DNA of 28,974 bases from a virus. Below are positions 3,079 through 28,974 of the stretch, piece by piece. A program made the position numbers and the translations under genes. The DNA is taken from IMG/VR virus record IMGVR_UViG_3300034101_003510, positions 1-28,974 of that record. One strand, 5' to 3'. The notes under the pieces are model-generated. The model worked only from the letters and a program-made list of their open reading frames with translations, had not been told where the DNA came from and made no database searches. Within the stretch, counting starts at the first letter, position 1, and each line of letters begins with the position of its first letter.

Positions 3079-3840
3079 TTAAAGTCCCATTTCTTTACGC
3101 TTTTGTGTGGCAGAAATAGCATGAATATCTGCACCTAAATCTACTTGTTCAATCTTATATCCTACATCTCTACCGTATACAATGTTGGTAATGTTAGGTA
3201 GTCTTAGTACTAATGCACCATCCATAAATTCATCCTTAGCAATATATTCTTTTACCTGATCAAACTTAAGTGGATCTTTCTCGCTTGTGTTGTATGTATT
3301 ACGTACTCCAAGTAGTACCTGGTCTGTTCTCTTACCCGCCTCTTTATAAAGAGCGTGGTGGCCTTCGTGCCAAGGCTGGTACCTACCCAGCATCAATGTG
3401 GTTGGAGCTGACCAATCATGCAATCTGAATTTTTCAATAATATGTGAGGCCTTTGCATCTGCATTAAGGTTATGACTAATAAAGGATACATCAAATTTAT
3501 CTGGTCGCTCAAATATTTTATTAGTGTCTTCGAAGCGTCCTTCTGCTAAAGTGTCCATGAATACAAGGATGTCTGGCTTACCGAATGCTGCACGAGTTAT
3601 TTCAGTTGGACATACAAAGTCAACAATTACGGGCGCAACACCTTGCTTGGCAATTAGTCGAGCCATCTCACCCATGCGTCTTGCTTGTTCAATTCTGTCT
3701 TCTGGAGTAAAGCTTAAATCAGAGTTTACTGTTGCACGTACCTCATCTGCATTAAGATGAATAGCATTTATGCGTTCCTTTAGTGCTTTGGCTAATTCAG
3801 TTTTCCCTGAGCCTGGAAGGCCTATAATCTGTATAATCAT
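3079..3840 (-). CDS. APS-kinase-like P-loop kinase fused to a cytidylyltransferase-fold domain
   Basis: A 253-aa two-domain enzyme. Residues 1-140 form a P-loop kinase like adenylylsulfate kinase: Walker A GLPGSGKT (7-14), then HLNADEVRATVN and FTPEDRIEQARR as in APS kinases. Residues about 145-253 form a nucleotidyltransferase of the NMN-adenylyl/cytidylyltransferase type: GRYQPWHEGH with HEGH at 158-161, and a closing ISATQKR at 242-248. It would phosphorylate a small molecule and then attach a nucleotide, but the substrate cannot be read from sequence. NadR also joins a kinase and a nucleotidyltransferase, but in the reverse order. The ATG at 3840 follows an AGGG site and a candidate promoter. 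Confidence 0.85.
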   Translation of the reverse strand: MIIQIIGLPGSGKTELAKALKERINAIHLNADEVRATVNSDLSFTPEDRIEQARRMGEMARLIAKQGVAPVIVDFVCPTEITRAAFGKPDILVFMDTLAEGRFEDTNKIFERPDKFDVSFISHNLNADAKASHIIEKFRLHDWSAPTTLMLGRYQPWHEGHHALYKEAGKRTDQVLLGVRNTYNTSEKDPLKFDQVKEYIAKDEFMDGALVLRLPNITNIVYGRDVGYKIEQVDLGADIHAISATQKRKEMGL

Positions 3841-3905: not shown

Positions 3906-4961
3906 TTAAACTCTGTTTATAGACTCTAAATTAGACATTGATGAAACCTCAATATATGTTGAGTTTTTTCTAAACTCCATTAAATTTTCTGATCCAGAAT
4001 AAGACAAAGCACTCTTTACATTATTTACTAACATATTTAATGAGTACTCTATTGATCCTTTAGATGAAACAAAGCCTGATACGCCCTCAACATATAAATT
4101 TTTTAAATCTTTTGTAAGCTCTTCGTTATTATCTTTTTGAACTTCTAATGAAGCAGAGCCTCTAAACACATGTCTGCCATTTTTGTCTGTATCACACTCA
4201 TCATGCCCAGAAAAAAATGATCCCATCATTACAGCCGAAGCTCCAGCAGCTAAAGCCTTTGCTACATCTCCATTGTTTTTAATTCCACCATCTGATATTA
4301 TTCCATTTACTTCAGAAGAATTTATATTTTCATAGCAATCCATAACTGATGATAAAACTGGAACTCCAAACCCTGTGACCATTCTAGTTGTACATGCAGC
4401 GCCTCCGCCAATTCCAACTCTTACTGAGTCTGCGCCAGCATCCATCAGATCTTTATAAGCCTCATAAGAAGAAACATTGCCACACATAATATGTACACCA
4501 GAGCCTACTAACAGTCTAAGTTCCTTTACTGCGTTAACAACAATTTCTAAATGTCCTAAAGCTACTTCTAAAAGCAAAACCTTTATGCCAAGTTTACCTA
4601 GTAGTTCTACGCAGCTTTTATTTTTTGACTCTTCAATAGATATAGCAAATCCAATAAGACTGTTGTCAACTTTAGGTAATATCGATTTTAACCTTGCTAT
4701 TCTTTCTTCAAAATTAGTATATCTAGGAAGTATGGCTAGCCCACCAAATGATGTAACCTTTTCTATCATAGAATCACTTGTAATAAAATCCATAGGTGCC
4801 ATAATAATAGGAGACCTTAAGTGTATAAAAGATTTTGGCCTGATTGGATTACCAATTACAGTATCTAGATTTATGCTGCCCCTTGTTACTATGTTAGATT
4901 TTTTAGGGACAAGCAGTATGTCATCAAAGCATATTGACCTAGTGCTTGTATCTTTTTTCAT
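3906..4961 (-). CDS. IMP dehydrogenase/GMP reductase family enzyme, most like GMP reductase
   Basis: A 351-aa TIM-barrel enzyme without CBS domains, the size of a GMP reductase (about 346 aa) rather than IMPDH (about 490). The active-site loop [11 protein letters not shown] carries the catalytic C190 and the following threonines. [17 protein letters not shown] and [11 protein letters not shown] follow; the GHDE ending is typical of GMP reductase, where IMPDH has a GT-containing version. The later [15 protein letters not shown] segment looks more like the IMPDH C-terminus, and the IMPDH flap Arg-Tyr pair is not visible. Either activity would change the GMP/IMP balance of the host. AAGGGG lies 5 nt before ATG 4961, which directly follows tRNA-Lys. 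Confidence 0.85.
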
Positions 4962-4982
4962 TCTTTCCCCTTTTTAATACAG

Positions 4983-5055
4983 TGTCCCCAGATGGTCTCG
5001 AACCATCGACCCGCAGATTAAAAGTCTGCTGCTCTACCAACTGAGCTATAGGAAC
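4983..5055 (-). tRNA. tRNA-Lys (anticodon TTT)
   Basis: A 73-nt cloverleaf. The acceptor stem GTTCCTA/TGGGGAC includes G-T pairs; the anticodon stem is GCAGA/TCTGC with loop CTTTTAA giving TTT; the T-arm is GATGG-TTCGAGA-CCATC; the discriminator is A. CCA is not encoded. It is separated from tRNA-Asn by 1 nt and shares about 22 bases of its D-arm region with it, so one may derive partly from the other. It would read AAA and AAG, likely frequent in these AT-rich genes. Confidence 0.95.
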
Positions 5056-5056
5056 G

Positions 5057-5129
5057 CTGCCCCACCTGGCCTCGATCCAGGGACATTCGAATTAACAGTT
5101 CGACGCTCTACCAACTGAGCTATAGGGCA
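5057..5129 (-). tRNA. tRNA-Asn (anticodon GTT) with unusual T-loop
   Basis: A 73-nt cloverleaf. Acceptor TGCCCTA/TGGGGCA, anticodon stem TCGAA/TTCGA with loop CTGTTAA giving GTT, discriminator G, no encoded CCA. The T-arm is CCTGG-ATCGAGG-CCAGG, so position 54 is A where nearly all elongator tRNAs have T. No clear promoter is visible between it and ahpD, so co-transcription with ahpC-ahpD is likely. Confidence 0.93.
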
Positions 5130-5164
5130 AAGCTGGTAGTTTTAAGTCATACCAAGGACTTATC

Positions 5165-5677
5165 CTAAGCCGAAAGAATTTTTGCTAGTGCATTAATTGT
5201 TGCTGCAATTCTTCCGATATCACGCAACTGCTCAACCGTATAGCCTTCTTCTTTCAATGTTTCATAATGTGCCTTAACACAAAAATGACATTTGCCAATA
5301 ATTGATGATGCTAAAGAGTAAGCTTCAAACTTACCCTTTGTTGTGCCACCATGAGAAGAAATAGCATTCATTCTTAGCTGTGCTGGCAACCCCTTTAGGT
5401 TTGGGTCATCTGCCATTTCAATGAATGGATACCAAACATTGTTTTGTGCCATGATAGCACCAGCTGTTAAAGCTGCATTTTTTTCAACTTCATCAGTAGC
5501 GCTTGCAGTAATAAATGCAAGCAGCTTAGAATTTCCAGTTGCAAATGCTGCAGCAATAGAAAGGTATGTTGCATGCTCTGGATCAATAGTTGACCTGTTG
5601 ATTACAGCATCTAGGTTTAACTTAATGTCTTTAGCATACTCTGGCAAGGAATCTTTTAGCTGGTCAACCCATAACAT
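5165..5677 (-). CDS. ahpD: Alkyl hydroperoxide reductase adaptor AhpD
   Basis: A 170-aa all-helical protein matching actinobacterial AhpD (M. tuberculosis form 177 aa). Catalytic positions align by number: E118, C130, C133 and H137 in FEAYSLASSIIGKCHFCVKAH. AhpD passes electrons from the dihydrolipoamide system to AhpC and has weak peroxidase activity of its own. One oddity: the M. tuberculosis H132 position is Phe here, with His moved to 131 (C-H-F-C), which may reduce proton relay. The ATG overlaps the AhpC stop by 1 nt (TAATG) with GGAG upstream, so the two are co-translated. Confidence 0.93.
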   Translation of the reverse strand: MLWVDQLKDSLPEYAKDIKLNLDAVINRSTIDPEHATYLSIAAAFATGNSKLLAFITASATDEVEKNAALTAGAIMAQNNVWYPFIEMADDPNLKGLPAQLRMNAISSHGGTTKGKFEAYSLASSIIGKCHFCVKAHYETLKEEGYTVEQLRDIGRIAATINALAKILSA

Positions 5678-6213
5678 TACAAAGTTTCTCCACCTAGTGA
5701 TCGATTACATGCACAAAGCTCTCCTGTTTGCAAAGCATCTAGTACACGAAGAGTTTCATCTGGGTTTCTACCTACATCTAGGTTGTTTACTGTAACATGC
5801 TGAATAATATTGTCTGGATCAATAATAAATGTGGCACGGTAAGTTACACCAGAAGAATGGTGAACTCCGAGATCATTAGCCAAATGGTGTGCAGTATCTG
5901 CAAATGACCATGAATTAGTCTTTTTTAGATCCTCGTGGGCATTTCTCCAAGCAATCTTACAGAACTCATTGTCCACTGATCCAGTCATTAAGACAGCATC
6001 TCTATCGTTAAAGTCATTAACTAAAGCATCATAAGCAACAATTTCTGTTGGGCATACAAATGTAAAATCTTTTGGATAAAATGCAATAATCTTCCATTTA
6101 CCTGGGAACGAATCCTGCGTGATTACCTCGAAAGAGGAATCTTCATATGACAAAGCTCCTGGCTTAACACCAGTGACTGCAAAATTTCCTAACTTATCTC
6201 CTACTGTTTTCAT
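5677..6213 (-). CDS. ahpC: Peroxiredoxin AhpC (alkyl hydroperoxide reductase)
   Basis: A 178-aa 2-Cys peroxiredoxin. The peroxidatic cysteine is C54 in KDFTFVCPTE, and the resolving pair C167/C169 is in GELCACNR, matching the three-cysteine actinobacterial AhpC (C61, C174, C176 in M. tuberculosis). It reduces hydrogen peroxide, organic peroxides and peroxynitrite, with AhpD as likely reductant. ATG 6213 is chosen because AAGGAG lies 5 nt upstream and the family starts MxTVGDK; an in-frame ATG at 6246 would add 11 non-family residues and touch the tRNA-Arg region. The gene follows tRNA-Arg within about 40 nt and is probably transcribed from the tRNA promoter. Confidence 0.95.
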   Translation of the reverse strand: MKTVGDKLGNFAVTGVKPGALSYEDSSFEVITQDSFPGKWKIIAFYPKDFTFVCPTEIVAYDALVNDFNDRDAVLMTGSVDNEFCKIAWRNAHEDLKKTNSWSFADTAHHLANDLGVHHSSGVTYRATFIIDPDNIIQHVTVNNLDVGRNPDETLRVLDALQTGELCACNRSLGGETL

Positions 6214-6250
6214 TTTTCTCCTTGTGTATAAGTGATGATATTTCATATCG

Positions 6251-6322
6251 CACCCCTGGCTGGATTCGAACCAGCGGCCAACAGATTAGAAGTCTGTTGC
6301 TCTTCCTCTGAGCTACAGAGGT
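6251..6322 (-). tRNA. tRNA-Arg (anticodon TCT)
   Basis: A 72-nt cloverleaf: acceptor ACCTCTG/CAGGGGT, D-arm GCTC/GAGC, anticodon stem ACAGA/TCTGT with loop CTTCTAA giving TCT, T-arm GCTGG-TTCGAAT-CCAGC, discriminator G, no encoded CCA. It reads AGA and AGG; AGA is the Arg codon an AT-rich phage would favour. Its 5' base lies 8 nt after a TATAAT box. Confidence 0.95.
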
Positions 6323-6330
6323 ATAAATAA

Positions 6331-6359
6331 ATTATACTATTAAAGATCAAAATCTTCAA
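6331..6359 (-). promoter_or_regulatory. Promoter of tRNA-Arg, probably also of ahpC-ahpD and downstream tRNAs
   Basis: Minus strand: -35 TTGAAG (6354-6359), 17-nt spacer, -10 TATAAT (6331-6336). Eight bases separate the -10 from the mature tRNA 5' base at 6322, so the start site should fall at or within 1-2 nt of the tRNA. The -35 lies inside the 3' end of the upstream 109-aa gene. Confidence 0.65.
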
Positions 6360-6669
6360 TAGTGTCTAAAGGTATAATACCTTTACTTTTAGCAATCTCG
6401 TACCCCTCTAATGTAAAATTAAATGTGGCATTTAGATTTTCATCGTATTCAACCTGCATTAAATCATTGTCTAATAAATCTAATAGTTCTGCATCGATAT
6501 ACTGTTCGTGTGCTTCCCAGAGTTCTGGAGCCAAATCCTTAGTAGTATCTTCATTTAGCTCGAATATGGCCTCTCCATCTTCAGTAAACCCAGCAACCCT
6601 TATTGCGCCTATTTCAATATAGTGCTGTATCTTATTCATCATTTCTTCTTCGTCAAAATCATTAAACAT
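6340..6669 (-). CDS. Acidic protein of unknown function
   Basis: A 109-aa, strongly acidic protein (MFNDFDEEEMMNKIQ..., ending DTIEDFDL). It looks like a small alpha/beta fold: a helix at about 8-24, then a FTEDGEAIFELNE hairpin and a helical middle (DLAPELWEAHEQYIDAELLDLL). No family recognised. The acidic, compact character would suit a regulator or a protein that mimics DNA or binds a partner, but nothing shows this directly. The ATG at 6669 has GGGGG 4 nt upstream. It lies between tRNA-Met and tRNA-Arg, and its 3' end holds the tRNA-Arg -35 box. Confidence 0.75.
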   Translation of the reverse strand: MFNDFDEEEMMNKIQHYIEIGAIRVAGFTEDGEAIFELNEDTTKDLAPELWEAHEQYIDAELLDLLDNDLMQVEYDENLNATFNFTLEGYEIAKSKGIIPLDTIEDFDL

Positions 6670-6680
6670 GTTACCCCCTG

Positions 6681-6754
6681 TGCAACAAGTAGGACTTGAA
6701 CCTACGATTACCGAATTATGAGTTCGGGGCTTTAACCAACTAAGCTATTGTTGC
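6681..6754 (-). tRNA. tRNA with CAT anticodon (elongator Met, or Ile2)
   Basis: A 74-nt cloverleaf: acceptor GCAACAA/TTGTTGC, anticodon stem CCGAA/TTCGG with loop CTCATAA giving CAT, T-arm GTAGG-TTCAAGT-CCTAC, discriminator A, no encoded CCA. Position 1 pairs with 72 (G-C) and the anticodon stem lacks the three G-C pairs of initiators, so it is not an initiator. Elongator Met is most likely; a lysidine-modified Ile2 cannot be excluded from sequence. Confidence 0.93.
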
Positions 6755-23974: not shown

Positions 23975-26900
23975 TTAACGCTCATCGCCCTGGAATGATG
24001 GGAAGAATGGTCCGTCAAAGAACGGTGGGAAGAACGGTGGGAAGAACGGTGGGAAGAATGGTGGGAAGAATGGGTTAGCAGGGAAGCTAGGGCCCTTAAA
24101 TGATGGGAAGAACGGTGGGAAGAATGGGAAGAACGGTGGGAAGAATGGGAAGAACGGTGGGAAGAACGGTGGGAAGAACGGTGGGAAGAACGGTGGGAAG
24201 AACGGTGGGAAGAACGGTGGGAAGAACGGTGGGAAGAACGGGTTAGCAGGGAAGGAAGGTGGGGTTGAGCAGAATCTTTCTTCTACAGTGCTGCATGGTG
24301 AACCAGAACCACAAACTCTCGTGCGAGTTTGTGTAAAGTTATTGCAGGCACTCCATCCAGACCAAGCACTACAATTTGCTAATTCTGTAGCATTACAAGT
24401 GCAAGGTGTTTGACATGCTGGGTATCCGCTTGTGCTACATGATGTTGAGTATCCAGAACCGCTACCACTTATGTTACTACTCTCAACGCTTTGGCTACAT
24501 CCAGCGCAGTTAAAGTTTACGCTTGTTGTGCAATACCATGTGCTGCATGGCTCTGTTTCAGAAGTTGCACAAGGGGATCCAGAATTACATGTTCTAGTTC
24601 TAGTTCTGCTATTTCCTGAACATGCTGACCATAATGACCAACTTGTGCATGCACTTTCGTTACAAACACATGGGGTTTGACATGCTGGGTATCCAGATGT
24701 GCTGCAAGAAGTAGAGAATCCAGAACCGCTACCACTTATGTTACTACTCTCAACGCTTTGGCTACATCCAGCGCAGTTAATATTAACGCTTGTTGTGCAA
24801 TACCATGTGCTGCATGCCTCTGTTTCGGAAGTTGAACACGGTGATCCAGATGGACACGTTCTAGTTCTAGTTCTATATCCATTTACACAAGCACTCCAAA
24901 AACTCCAAGTACTACATGCGTTATCTGCTGCAGAATTACAAACGCAAGGGGTTTGACATGCTGGAAACCCGCTTGTGCTACATGATGTTGAGTATCCAGA
25001 ACCGCTACCACTGATGTTGCTTCCTTCAATAGACTGACTACAGCCTGCACAGTTAGAGTTTACGCTTGTTGTACAATACCAGCACTGCTGTGTTTGAGAT
25101 GTTTCGCATGGTGAACCATTTGGGCAAATTCTTGTACGGGACCTATACCCTCCAGAGCAAGAGCTCCAAGCGCTCCAAGCTCCGCATTTTCCGTTTGCAG
25201 TAGAGTCGCAAACGCAAGGGGTTTGGCAGGCTGGAAACCCGCTTGTGCTACATGATGTTGAGTATCCAGAACCGCTACCACTGATGTTGCTTCCTTCAAT
25301 AGACTGACTACAGCCTGCACAGTTAGAGTTTACGCTTGTTGTACAATACCAGCACTGCTGTGTTTCAGATGTAGGGCACACGGATCCGTTTGGACAAATT
25401 CTTGTGCGGGATCTATAACCTCCAGAGCATGAGCTCCAAGCGCTCCAAGCGCCACACTTTCCTTCTTCTGTAGAATTACAAATGCATGGGGTCTGACATG
25501 CTGGGTATCCAGATGTGCTGCATGACGTTGAGTATCCAGAACCGCTACCACTGATGTTTTGAGTCTCTAGAGTTTGAGTACAACCAGCACAGTTAAAGTT
25601 AACGCTTGTTGTGCAATACCAGCAATAATCTTCTTCCGTTGTAACAGTAGTAGTACAATTTAAAAAAGTTTCTGTTTTAGTTCTAGTTCTTACACCACCA
25701 GCTGAGCAGGCACTCCAATCACTATAAACAGTTGAAACGCAACATGATGGTGTTGTATAGCATGCTGTTGCATATCCAGAACCATTTCCGCTTACGTTTG
25801 TTGGTGATTGAAAAGTTGAACACGTAATTGGTGTACCCTGTACATATGTTACGCAATACCACGTTCCTGTTGTTTCGCAGGACTCTGAAGATGTTTCAAA
25901 ATCGTATGAAAAAGCTGTAAGGTCGGAATTATTTATTTTAGATGTTGTAACAGATACACACGATGGTTGATTTTGGCTAACTCCTGAAACAGATATAACA
26001 GATCCAGATCTTGTTGCGTTTCCATTTGTGCAGTTTATTGTTATATCAAATGTACTTATGTCTTGATAATTTAATATATCAACCTTAAATGAAGTAGCTG
26101 TGGCATCATATGCTCTAGAAAGTATAGCCTGAATTCCTAAATTAAGAGTTCTAATGCTTTCTGTTATAGTATTACTTTCCTTTAGAGGATAGGCATTCCC
26201 TCCAAGGGCAGTAACAGATATGTTATAAAGAGCATTTATTGTTAGCCCAGATAGTACAGCAGATGTATTTGTTGTGGTTACTGGATAACCAGACAACGAA
26301 GCTCCAGTTGAATTCCTTTTTATATCCACCCTATAAGAAGTTGCATTTGTAGAAAACCATTCTACAGAAAAAGATTCCTTGGTTCTATTTGAAAATGTAA
26401 TTGATGGGTCTTCAATAATTCCTGGTTGCCAGTCTATAAATGCAAGCTCTTGTGTTGGTCCGTCTGAAGAATATCTAACTCCAGTAAAATCTCTGTAGTA
26501 ATCATCAGCTATGATTGAAAGCTCCCACTGATAACTATCATTAGGGTTTAGATTATTTGGTAAATTTATTACTGTTGATGTATCTAGTAATGATACGACT
26601 TCAGCAAAAGGAAGCTGTGGCTGTCCAGCACTATTATAAAGCTGAATTTCTTGTGAATACATATAGGTTGGAATTTGAGAAACTGTTATTGTTGAAGGAT
26701 CATATGCCCAGGATAGCGTTAATGCCGATTCTGTTTCATCTGTAATTTCAAATGATGATATGTTAAATAAATATCTGGCTGCAATTCCCATAGATGGAAA
26801 GTTTAGGTCTGCTTCTCCATCATCATTTTCTGCTTTTATCTTTCCTCTAAATTTTGCCTTATTGTAAACATCTGTTTTTGATATTAGAGGCCTGTTAGAT

Positions 26901-27361
26901 ATGCTTGTTGGCACTTGAAAAGATGCATCAGAATTAGAATAATTTGTATATTCTTTAACTACTGGAGTTATTAAATCTGTCCATGTTGAATACGGAGGAC
27001 TTGATTTTTGAATGTACATGGTAAATTTTGTAGGCTGTTCATTCCATTCGCCTCTAGTTAAATATATTCTATCTCCATTAAATGGAGAATCAATTGATTC
27101 AAATCCAGCTGGTGAAACAAAATTTAAAGATGGTGGATTTGCTGTTTCAGCATTAGGAATATTAGATCCAAAAATTTTAATCCATAGACCAGTGCTTTGT
27201 AGTCTCCAGATGGTTCTTATTTTTACCCAGCCGTTTACTGCAGCAGAAACTTCTCCACCTGAGTCATTAATTCTTCTCCATATATTTTTTATCTTTACCC
27301 AACCATTTGTTGCGTATGGAACTTCGCCACCTTGGTCGTTAATTCTTCTCCAGATTGTCAT
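23975..27361 (-). CDS. Large tail fibre or adhesin: FN3-like, TSP1-like modules, FFPP tail
   Basis: A 1128-aa protein. Residues 3-50 are two 24-aa repeats (IWRRIND.GGEV..A.NGWVKI). About 195-405 holds fibronectin-III-like sandwiches. From 501 to about 1030 come six cysteine-rich modules of 80-92 aa, starting at W501, 581, 671, 761, 853 and 942. The last five each contain WYCTTSVN, CAGC, NISGSGSG and CQTPC, then a thrombospondin-type-1-like unit such as WSAWSSCSGGYRSRTRIC; the first is degenerate. Residues 1034-1128 are mainly FFPP repeats. The tail-tip gene upstream is 12 nt away. It is probably a receptor-binding fibre stabilised by disulfides outside the cell; which part touches the host is unknown. 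There is no signal peptide, as expected for a virion part. Confidence 0.85.
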   Translation of the reverse strand: MTIWRRINDQGGEVPYATNGWVKIKNIWRRINDSGGEVSAAVNGWVKIRTIWRLQSTGLWIKIFGSNIPNAETANPPSLNFVSPAGFESIDSPFNGDRIYLTRGEWNEQPTKFTMYIQKSSPPYSTWTDLITPVVKEYTNYSNSDASFQVPTSISNRPLISKTDVYNKAKFRGKIKAENDDGEADLNFPSMGIAARYLFNISSFEITDETESALTLSWAYDPSTITVSQIPTYMYSQEIQLYNSAGQPQLPFAEVVSLLDTSTVINLPNNLNPNDSYQWELSIIADDYYRDFTGVRYSSDGPTQELAFIDWQPGIIEDPSITFSNRTKESFSVEWFSTNATSYRVDIKRNSTGASLSGYPVTTTNTSAVLSGLTINALYNISVTALGGNAYPLKESNTITESIRTLNLGIQAILSRAYDATATSFKVDILNYQDISTFDITINCTNGNATRSGSVISVSGVSQNQPSCVSVTTSKINNSDLTAFSYDFETSSESCETTGTWYCVTYVQGTPITCSTFQSPTNVSGNGSGYATACYTTPSCCVSTVYSDWSACSAGGVRTRTKTETFLNCTTTVTTEEDYCWYCTTSVNFNCAGCTQTLETQNISGSGSGYSTSCSTSGYPACQTPCICNSTEEGKCGAWSAWSSCSGGYRSRTRICPNGSVCPTSETQQCWYCTTSVNSNCAGCSQSIEGSNISGSGSGYSTSCSTSGFPACQTPCVCDSTANGKCGAWSAWSSCSGGYRSRTRICPNGSPCETSQTQQCWYCTTSVNSNCAGCSQSIEGSNISGSGSGYSTSCSTSGFPACQTPCVCNSAADNACSTWSFWSACVNGYRTRTRTCPSGSPCSTSETEACSTWYCTTSVNINCAGCSQSVESSNISGSGSGFSTSCSTSGYPACQTPCVCNESACTSWSLWSACSGNSRTRTRTCNSGSPCATSETEPCSTWYCTTSVNFNCAGCSQSVESSNISGSGSGYSTSCSTSGYPACQTPCTCNATELANCSAWSGWSACNNFTQTRTRVCGSGSPCSTVEERFCSTPPSFPANPFFPPFFPPFFPPFFPPFFPPFFPPFFPPFFPFFPPFFPFFPPFFPSFKGPSFPANPFFPPFFPPFFPPFFPPFFDGPFFPSFQGDER
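24023..24070. repeat. 12-bp tandem array A (FFPP codons)
   Basis: Four units of CGGTGGGAAGAA on the plus strand (the last with one base change) encode FFPP on the minus strand. The array is followed by the same GGGTTAGCAGGGAAG segment that borders array B, so a whole end block appears duplicated. Confidence 0.9.
24104..24240. repeat. 12-bp tandem array B (FFPP codons)
   Basis: Seven uninterrupted 12-bp units (24155-24238) and two 21-bp variants (24113-24154) that each add an FFP. All units are multiples of 3 bases, so copy changes keep the frame. The plus strand is almost pure purine in blocks. Confidence 0.9.
24270..25861 (-). repeat. Six tandem cysteine-rich/TSP1-like coding modules
   Basis: WYC codons that mark each module lie at 25853-25861, 25613-25621, 25343-25351, 25073-25081, 24797-24805 and 24530-24538, giving spacings of 240, 270, 270, 276 and 267 bp. 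Modules 2 and 3 (counting the degenerate one as 0) are the most alike. Confidence 0.88.
24960..25365 (-). repeat. Identical 136-bp direct repeat inside the fibre gene
   Basis: Bases 24960-25095 and 25230-25365 appear identical and are offset by exactly 270 bp, one module. Flanking bases differ. This points to recent duplication or gene conversion. Confidence 0.85.
27212..27355 (-). repeat. Two 72-bp repeats at the fibre N-terminus
   Basis: They encode the imperfect 24-aa repeats IWRRINDQGGEV... and IWRRINDSGGEV..., followed by a third, broken copy (IWRLQSTG, then LWIKIFG). The position suggests the part that attaches the fibre to the tail (inference). Confidence 0.75.
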
Positions 27362-27373
27362 ATGCCTACACCA

Positions 27374-28974
27374 TTAAATTCTTGAAAGCCATATGTCTCC
27401 AGGATTGAAGCTTACACTTACTCCGCCAACATCTCTAGATAAAGCCCCATTGGGAAGGTTTGCTCCCCCATAATGGAATGCTCTACCAGTTGTTAGGTAT
27501 CCATCTTTATCTTGAACAACCGTAGTATCTCCACCATATCCGTCATTGTTAGATGAAACACTAAGTCTAATTTTAAATTGGCTATATGGTAAACCGCTTG
27601 GATTTATTGAAACAGAGTTAGATGTTTTATCATAAACTAAAGAACCATTTCCTAATGCAAAACTTCCTGCTGCTTTTGTTGTTCCAGATATGGTTGTGTC
27701 CTTACCAAGCAAGTAGTCATTTGAAAAATTAACTCCTGTACCTAAAAATATATTAGAGGCTACAAGATCTGTTTGCACATTAAATACTGTTCCATCATAT
27801 GTTAGCTTTCCGCCTGCTAATCTAAAGTTTCCACTAGAAGAAATATAGTCTATGTTTCCTGGGTTTCCACTTCCAGCTCCTGGATTAGCAGTGTTCCATA
27901 CGGAAGGACTTGTAAAATAATGATTTGATCCTACTATGTTACCACCAATTATTGAACCCTGAAGACCATTCAGTCTTATTTCAGAAGATACGTTTGTAGA
28001 CTTTATGTCTGCTCCGTCAACTTTCCATCCCTGATCAAGCTTGTATCCAGTTGCTGTTGTTGCGTCAGGTATTAATGTTCCAAAATATGCTTCTCCAGTC
28101 TGTACCATTCCCTTAAGCACTGCATCTCTAGCTACAAGTTTACCTGCGTATGTTACAGAAAAATTAGGACTTACCGTTCTAGATCCACCAGCCCATATGG
28201 CTACATCTCCTGGTGTAGTTGTAGCAAAAAATCCAATATTGCCAGCTTTGTTTATAGATGTATCATCTATTGTCCAACCAGCAATTGTTCCTTTGTTAGC
28301 AATAATTCCAGATTCAGTGTCTAGCTGGAAAAGCTTACCAGATGAGTTGGTTCCTTGGATTCCAATACCAATCTTTTGTCCAGAAATATTTGTTAGCTTT
28401 CCTATTTCAAATTTTCCAGATGATGTTGTTACTCTAAGTTGTCCATCTACAGATGATGTTCCTATGTCTACAGAACCAGTAAATGCTCCAGCATTAGCAT
28501 TTATTTTTCCAGTTATTTCTAAATTAGTTCCGTTCCAAAGTAACCAGTCGTTTGTTCCTCCAACTTTAAATCTTGCAGCAGATGAAACGCTAGTGTTTCC
28601 AGTTACATACCAATAATTTTCTGGAGCGATGTATAAACCTTTATTTGAATTACTTCCACCAATTCCGTATCCGAGTTTCATGTCTCCAGCAGTAATTGCT
28701 ACATCTGTTTTTAAAGATGTGTTAGCTGGTATTACTATATCTGGATACTGCTTATACCCAGAGTTGTCATTTCCATAAACATCATACGTTGTTACAGCTA
28801 TCTGATAAGTTTGACCAGCCTTTAATCCATACAAATATGTTGATAGGGTTCCTCTTCCTGGAACAGACATATATGTATAATTAGCATCAGAAGCAGTCTT
28901 GTATCTTATTCTATATCCAGAAGTTGAAGTATCTGTGTTTTGTGTCCATGTAAAAAGAATCTTTTTATCAAAAT
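27374..28974 (-). CDS. Tail-tip/receptor-binding protein, N-terminus beyond the window
   Basis: The frame stays open past ATG 28870 to the window edge, so the 5' end is missing. The added residues (KILFTWTQNTDTSTSGYRIR, YKTASDANYTYM) complete a fibronectin-III-like domain with AGQTYQIAVTTYDVYGN. After it comes a long Gly/Ser/Thr-rich beta region with GAFTGSVDIG, GTIAGWTIDD, FFATTTPGDVAIWAGG and GNFRLAGGKLTYDG, typical of the C-terminal part of central tail-tip/host-specificity proteins (lambda gpJ type). It ends 12 nt before the fibre start, consistent with a tail-tip operon. Confidence 0.8.
   Translation of the reverse strand, partial: FDKKILFTWTQNTDTSTSGYRIRYKTASDANYTYMSVPGRGTLSTYLYGLKAGQTYQIAVTTYDVYGNDNSGYKQYPDIVIPANTSLKTDVAITAGDMKLGYGIGGSNSNKGLYIAPENYWYVTGNTSVSSAARFKVGGTNDWLLWNGTNLEITGKINANAGAFTGSVDIGTSSVDGQLRVTTSSGKFEIGKLTNISGQKIGIGIQGTNSSGKLFQLDTESGIIANKGTIAGWTIDDTSINKAGNIGFFATTTPGDVAIWAGGSRTVSPNFSVTYAGKLVARDAVLKGMVQTGEAYFGTLIPDATTATGYKLDQGWKVDGADIKSTNVSSEIRLNGLQGSIIGGNIVGSNHYFTSPSVWNTANPGAGSGNPGNIDYISSSGNFRLAGGKLTYDGTVFNVQTDLVASNIFLGTGVNFSNDYLLGKDTTISGTTKAAGSFALGNGSLVYDKTSNSVSINPSGLPYSQFKIRLSVSSNNDGYGGDTTVVQDKDGYLTTGRAFHYGGANLPNGALSRDVGGVSVSFNPGDIWLSRI

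Follow-up and report, generated by a model that had tools for sequence, protein, structure and literature searches.

Thrombospondin type-1 repeats (TSRs), known chiefly from animals, have been studied as adhesion domains of animals and apicomplexans, and their folding depends on C-mannose and O-fucose. Cysteines in group 1 TSRs pair as C1-C5 and C3-C4. Structurally, the domain is a stack of Trp and Arg residues supplied by three antiparallel chains (PMC6736995; PMC6954052). TSRs carry six Cys in three disulfides, and O-fucose shields one of these, C2-C6, from reduction (PMC9198472). Here, we analyzed a 28,974-nt stretch of viral DNA (the window; IMG/VR record IMGVR_UViG_3300034101_003510) that encodes a tail fibre with TSR-like modules. 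We consider it fairly likely that this protein is the terminal, host-contact tail fibre of an uncultured aquatic actinophage related to Stanwilliamsviridae, in which an array of TSR variants serves as a putative binding rod.

The fibre gene, its operon, and the phage

The tail-fibre gene (23975..27361, minus strand, as are all genes and domains of the window given below) is a 1128-aa ORF under purifying selection and the final gene of the tail operon. Its N-terminal region (aa 1-65, 27167..27361) contains three Trp-rich repeats of the type IWRR..GWVKI, and similar repeats begin the fibre proteins of relatives L004, L008, L013, and L015. These repeats are probably the attachment part of the fibre, a function that we infer. 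A fibronectin type III (Fn3) domain lies at aa 321-399 (26165..26401; Pfam PF00041, E=3.9e-6, 27.4 bits vs a cut-off of 25). The six-module array covers aa 501-1031 (24269-25861), and a C-terminal Phe/Pro repeat tail (FFPPFFPP) covers aa 1032-1128 (23978..24268), with a tandem repeat at 24018-24241; these two parts and the N-terminal region were delimited from sequence. The FFPPFFPP tail is common to close relatives, and FFPY or FAPPSFF variants occur in others. Antisense and short overlapping ORFs across the fibre region were considered mechanical.

Upstream of the fibre, the window holds the C-terminal 532 aa of an Fn3-containing tail protein (27374..28974; Pfam fn3, 22.2 bits), which matches Gilson gene 45 over its Fn3 stretch (BLASTP E=3e-5) and has a full homologue of 826 aa in L049. 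On a related 53-kb contig, the gene order is tape measure (at least 2620 aa), a 196-aa protein, minor tail protein (1097 aa, phrog_10359), a 115-aa protein, tail protein (286 aa, phrog_9983), Fn3 tail protein (826 aa), and TSR fibre. The fibre gene sits where a tail-fibre gene would, behind the tape measure and minor tail genes of the tail operon. Genes 40-45 of Streptomyces phage Gilson follow the same order, then comes a phosphoesterase; the 1097-aa protein, the 286-aa protein, and the phosphoesterase are homologous between Gilson and the relative. Endolysin, transglycosylase, and LysM-like matches lie within the tape measure at L049:12108-19970.

The terminase and DnaE are nearest to those of Streptomyces phages of Stanwilliamsviridae. 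In addition, whiB, an actinophage marker (PMC6802176), is present in two relatives, one of them with a 93% identical terminase. Because of the synteny with Gilson, the Streptomyces-phage-like terminase and DnaE, and whiB in relatives, the host is most likely an actinobacterium. The GC content of the window is 37%, which sets it apart from Stanwilliamsviridae and fits freshwater actinobacterial lineages.

Several other genes of the window are metabolic. A tryptophan halogenase gene lies at 1264-2817 (PF04820, E=7e-105; phrog_2928). An IMP dehydrogenase-like gene lies at 3906-4961, and a fusion of kinase- and cytidylyltransferase-like parts (APS_kinase plus CTP_transf_like) lies at 3079-3840. 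The metabolic genes are interspersed at 4982-6754 with four tRNA genes, for Lys, Asn, Arg, and Met. At 5165-6246, an AhpC-type peroxiredoxin stands beside a CxxC-containing, AhpD-like CMD protein; a tie between these two genes and the Cys of the fibre modules would be speculation.

Six modules, each with a compact variant of the thrombospondin type-1 repeat

The initial annotation described six tandem Cys-rich modules of 80-92 aa, and these are indeed present at 24269-25861, within one base of where it placed them. From module 1 to module 6, they measure 80, 90, 90, 92, 89, and 90 aa and contain 8, 12, 12, 12, 12, and 12 Cys (68 in total). TRF detected the tandem array with a score of 1001, and dN/dS within the modules was 0.06-0.18 between the window and four relatives, indicating purifying selection. 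Being a tandem repeat that is conserved in homologues and under purifying selection, the array is more than chance. The motifs first ascribed to all modules were less uniform: WYCTTSVN and CQTPC occur in modules 2-6, while the divergent module 1 reads WYCVTYVQ in place of the former and lacks the latter. Likewise, WSxWSxCSGGYRSRTRxC is exact in modules 2 and 3 only; its counterpart in module 1 is YSDWSACSAGGVRTRTKTE, and the degenerate forms outside modules 1-3 are WSFWSACVNGYRTRTRTC, WSLWSACSGNSRTRTRTC, and WSGWSACNNFTQTRTRVC.

Each module joins two parts, of which the second is a compact TSR variant. Module 1 (25622..25861) has a TSR-like half at 25622-25729 that scores 13.1 bits on the Pfam profile TSP_1 (PF00090). 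Module 2 (25352..25621) consists of a first half at 25496-25621 and a TSR half at 25352-25456 (19.3 bits, E=0.0013). The highest score in the window belongs to module 3 (25082..25351; first half 25226-25351, TSR half 25082-25186; 20.2 bits, E=6.8e-4; fold model m18436e758ffb). Modules 4 (24806..25081; 24956-25081 and 24812-24916) and 5 (24539..24805; 24680-24805 and 24545-24649) score 17.5 and 17.8 bits, respectively, and module 6 (24269..24538; 24413-24538 and 24269-24373) is weak at 10.1 bits.

A whole-protein hmmscan returned TSP_1 at E=0.15 only, so modules were scanned one by one. Scanned singly, all 26 aligned second halves, from the window and its relatives, matched TSP_1 (best E=4.2e-5), and none of ten controls did (five Cys-fixed shuffles and five reversals). 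All six halves of the window fall below the curated cut-off of 21.6 bits, which is exceeded by three modules of relatives (23.5, 24.0, and 24.1 bits). The alignment runs colinearly from position 2 to position 44 of the 49-position profile, and each of W, W, C, R, R, C, G, C, and C falls into place. Across the 26 sequences, C1, W4, C10, R17, T18, R19, C21, G24, C27, T29, and C35 never vary, and >90% have W7. The TSP_1 succession of WxxW(xxW) in strand A and RxR(xR) in strand B is thus found, with two Trp instead of three. When PDB sequences were compared with a profile of the 26 halves, nine of the ten matches were TSR proteins; complement C8 beta came first through its C-terminal TSR (E=0.017), and complement C6 was also among them. 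These matches are weak individually; it is their agreement that counts. In L031 and L015, the TSR-like stretches are divergent, and scans with them matched only the contigs they came from.

The predicted fold agrees with the profile. With 29 aligned modules, AlphaFold reached a pLDDT of 86-96 in the second half, whereas the first 45 residues stayed at <50, too low to be usable; five single-module models were similar in mean pLDDT. The model of the second half has the three-stranded layered TSR fold. In a Foldseek search of the PDB, its best eight matches all bear TSRs (probability 0.96-1.00, dropping to 0.21 at the ninth) and are chains of the complement membrane-attack complex and Unc5A. The corresponding E-values of 0.04-0.23 are weak, as expected at 35 residues, and not significant alone. 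A tandem-module model also ranked complement proteins first, and its quality hangs on one of five predictions (best pLDDT 80.4, the remaining four 53-58). Both the profile search and the structure prediction therefore came out in favor of the TSR likeness that had been noted from the motifs.

Cys spacing within the second half is 8/10-11/5/7 in nearly all modules, one L031 module having 8/14/5/7. Module L008:5988 has 5/8/5/5 vs the usual 8/10/5/7 and is shortened in all three strands: A by 3 (one WSx step), B by 2 (one RT step), and C by 2. These losses are those that taking out one Trp-Arg layer would require, a reading that is suggestive only because it is a single case. Along with the fold match, this module lends indirect support to a putative Trp-Arg stack.

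The Cys complement departs from the six of a TSR. Phage halves have five, and the equivalents of C2 and C6 are both missing, so both ends of the C2-C6 bond are gone together. The C1-C5 and C3-C4 pairs could still form. In the PDB profile alignments, C2 is likewise missing from the TSRs of complement C8 beta and complement C6, and the TSR fold therefore does not need C2. Because these complement TSRs also do without it, the loss of C2 and C6 lowers canonical TSR membership and leaves the fold itself tenable. Because the cytoplasm in which phage proteins fold is reducing, the disulfides are assumed here.

The first half has the consensus WYCTTSVN..C..C..N.SGSGSGY..C..YPxC, with four invariant Cys in a wide set. 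It had been suspected of being a new domain, and comparison with Pfam, PHROGs, and PDB sequence families gave nothing credible, in line with that suspicion; the sole PDB match of its profile, a LIM protein at E=0.38, was judged to be chance. Other phage proteins (L016-L021, L046, and L048) have this half but no TSR. As a sequence unit, it is a separate, apparently mobile, and unclassified micro-domain. Several Cys-rich relatives (L016, L018, L019, L031, L046, and L048) end, by eye, in a Hint-type-looking autoprocessing domain after a proline-rich stretch.

Relatives, module divergence, and the role of the array

Scans of IMG/VR yielded about twenty contigs with related proteins, and close relatives retain the full architecture with a varying number of modules. 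Searching 50,697 phage records by tblastn with the modules and with the 1031-aa region gave no match. Across 84,980 genomes of bacteria and archaea, scanned twice, the patterns used picked up no relative, and therefore no cellular source was found.

Comparison with L013 localizes the divergence to the modules. The two sequences are 91-99% identical upstream (28974-26275), fall to 60-82% with gaps within 26274-24175, and return to 96-97% directly downstream. In agreement, dS is 1.5 in the modules vs 0.17-0.35 in the remainder of the protein. Because the identity boundary around the modules is so sharp, this pattern indicates that the module cassette was replaced by recombination between near-identical phages. 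Such exchange in turn points to the cassette as a candidate host-range element. A second exchange is visible against L004 at 27175-27774 (58-69% identity, flanks 82-98%) and takes in the fibre's N-terminal repeats along with the end of the gene before it.

From this layout, we infer a fibre that is present in the virion and works as follows. The N-terminal Trp repeats would fasten it to the tail tip, and the Fn3 part would act as a spacer. The module array would form a thin rod held together by Trp-Arg layers and disulfides in place of a large hydrophobic core, the TSR halves keeping their C1-C5 and C3-C4 equivalents without either partner of the O-fucose-protected C2-C6 bond. These disulfides would probably form once lysis has released the fibre into oxic water. 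The exposed basic face of the rod, together with the first-half micro-domain, may then bind the actinobacterial surface through a glycan or a protein.

The main rival to this reading is that the array is merely a stiff, extendable stalk whose module number sets fibre length, with binding located elsewhere, for instance in the FFPP tail or the preceding tail protein. The repeats are regular and their number differs among relatives, as a stalk would have it. Moreover, receptor binding in phage fibres is usually the task of the C-terminal ends, and the C-terminus here is the FFPP tail. However, the pair whose modules were exchanged has almost the same FFPP tail, the reverse of what would be expected if the modules were a passive stalk and the tail did the binding. 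This pattern of exchange argues against a passive stalk, which we regard as unlikely.

A different doubt concerns the origin of the fold rather than its role: phage fibres could have evolved a three-stranded, Cys-rich, W/R-stacked fold of their own, separately from eukaryotic TSRs. At 35 aa vs about 50-60, the module is short, C2 and C6 are missing, scores lie near the threshold, and scans of 84,980 genomes with the patterns used gave no bacterial relative. Yet the TSP_1 match runs in order over nearly the whole profile, and the best matches are complement TSRs that have lost the same Cys. Convergence seems quite unlikely to us, and even if it occurred, it would still leave a TSR-like fold. 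Finally, binding of zinc or iron by the Cys, in place of disulfides, would give a cytoplasm-stable fibre and suit both the reducing cytoplasm in which phage proteins fold and the CxxC and CxC pairs of the modules, but it is very improbable given that no zinc-finger family matches, the TSR half retains Cys pairs that are disulfides in TSRs, and the window's modules contain no histidine.

Comparison with known systems

Our preferred reading, a host-contact fibre with a TSR-variant rod, can be set against three known systems. With Gilson and its relatives in Stanwilliamsviridae, the phage shares tail operon order, terminase (63%), DnaE (58%), and phosphoesterase (41%). By contrast, nothing in the Gilson genome matches TSP_1, and no fibre-sized gene lies there between gene 45 and the phosphoesterase.

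Among predicted viral structures, the best match was UniProt A0A6J5N7M8 (probability 1.00, 39% identity over 41 columns). This entry, assigned to an uncultured Caudovirales phage, bears the name "Thrombospondin type-1 (TSP1) repeat (Fragment)"; it differs in being a database fragment, and its name is probably automatic. The initial annotation had called TSRs seldom met in phages. While its identification of the halves as TSRs is supported, the domain is not unprecedented there, and the existing name limits any claim of novelty. A literature search on thrombospondin with phage tails found nothing relevant: a jumbo-phage review has the word only within its reference list, and a freshwater actinophage paper does not mention the domain (PMC6802176). 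The locus supplies a probable host-recognition element for phages of aquatic actinobacteria, as well as a new Cys-rich micro-domain common to several phage fibres.

The closest comparison remains TSP_1 itself, with complement C8 beta (3ojy) and complement C6 (3t5o) as the nearest solved structures. The phage half shares with them the order WxxWxxC, RxRxC, G, C, C, the predicted fold, and the missing C2. It differs from TSP_1 in its shorter length, the joint loss of C2 and C6, two Trp vs three, and an additional Cys three residues ahead of the first Trp. Because it is made in bacteria, no C-mannose or O-fucose machinery is expected for it. It is quite possible, if tentative, that actinophages own a TSR branch without the C2-C6 bond or eukaryotic glycosylation, joined to a phage-only four-Cys micro-domain (WYCTT..C..N.SGSGSGY..C..YPxC) as an exchangeable receptor-recognition array. 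A phage TSR that lacks exactly the reduction-sensitive bond would be a minimal TSR that may fold unaided by C-mannose and O-fucose, making it useful for protein design and for the question of where TSRs originated.
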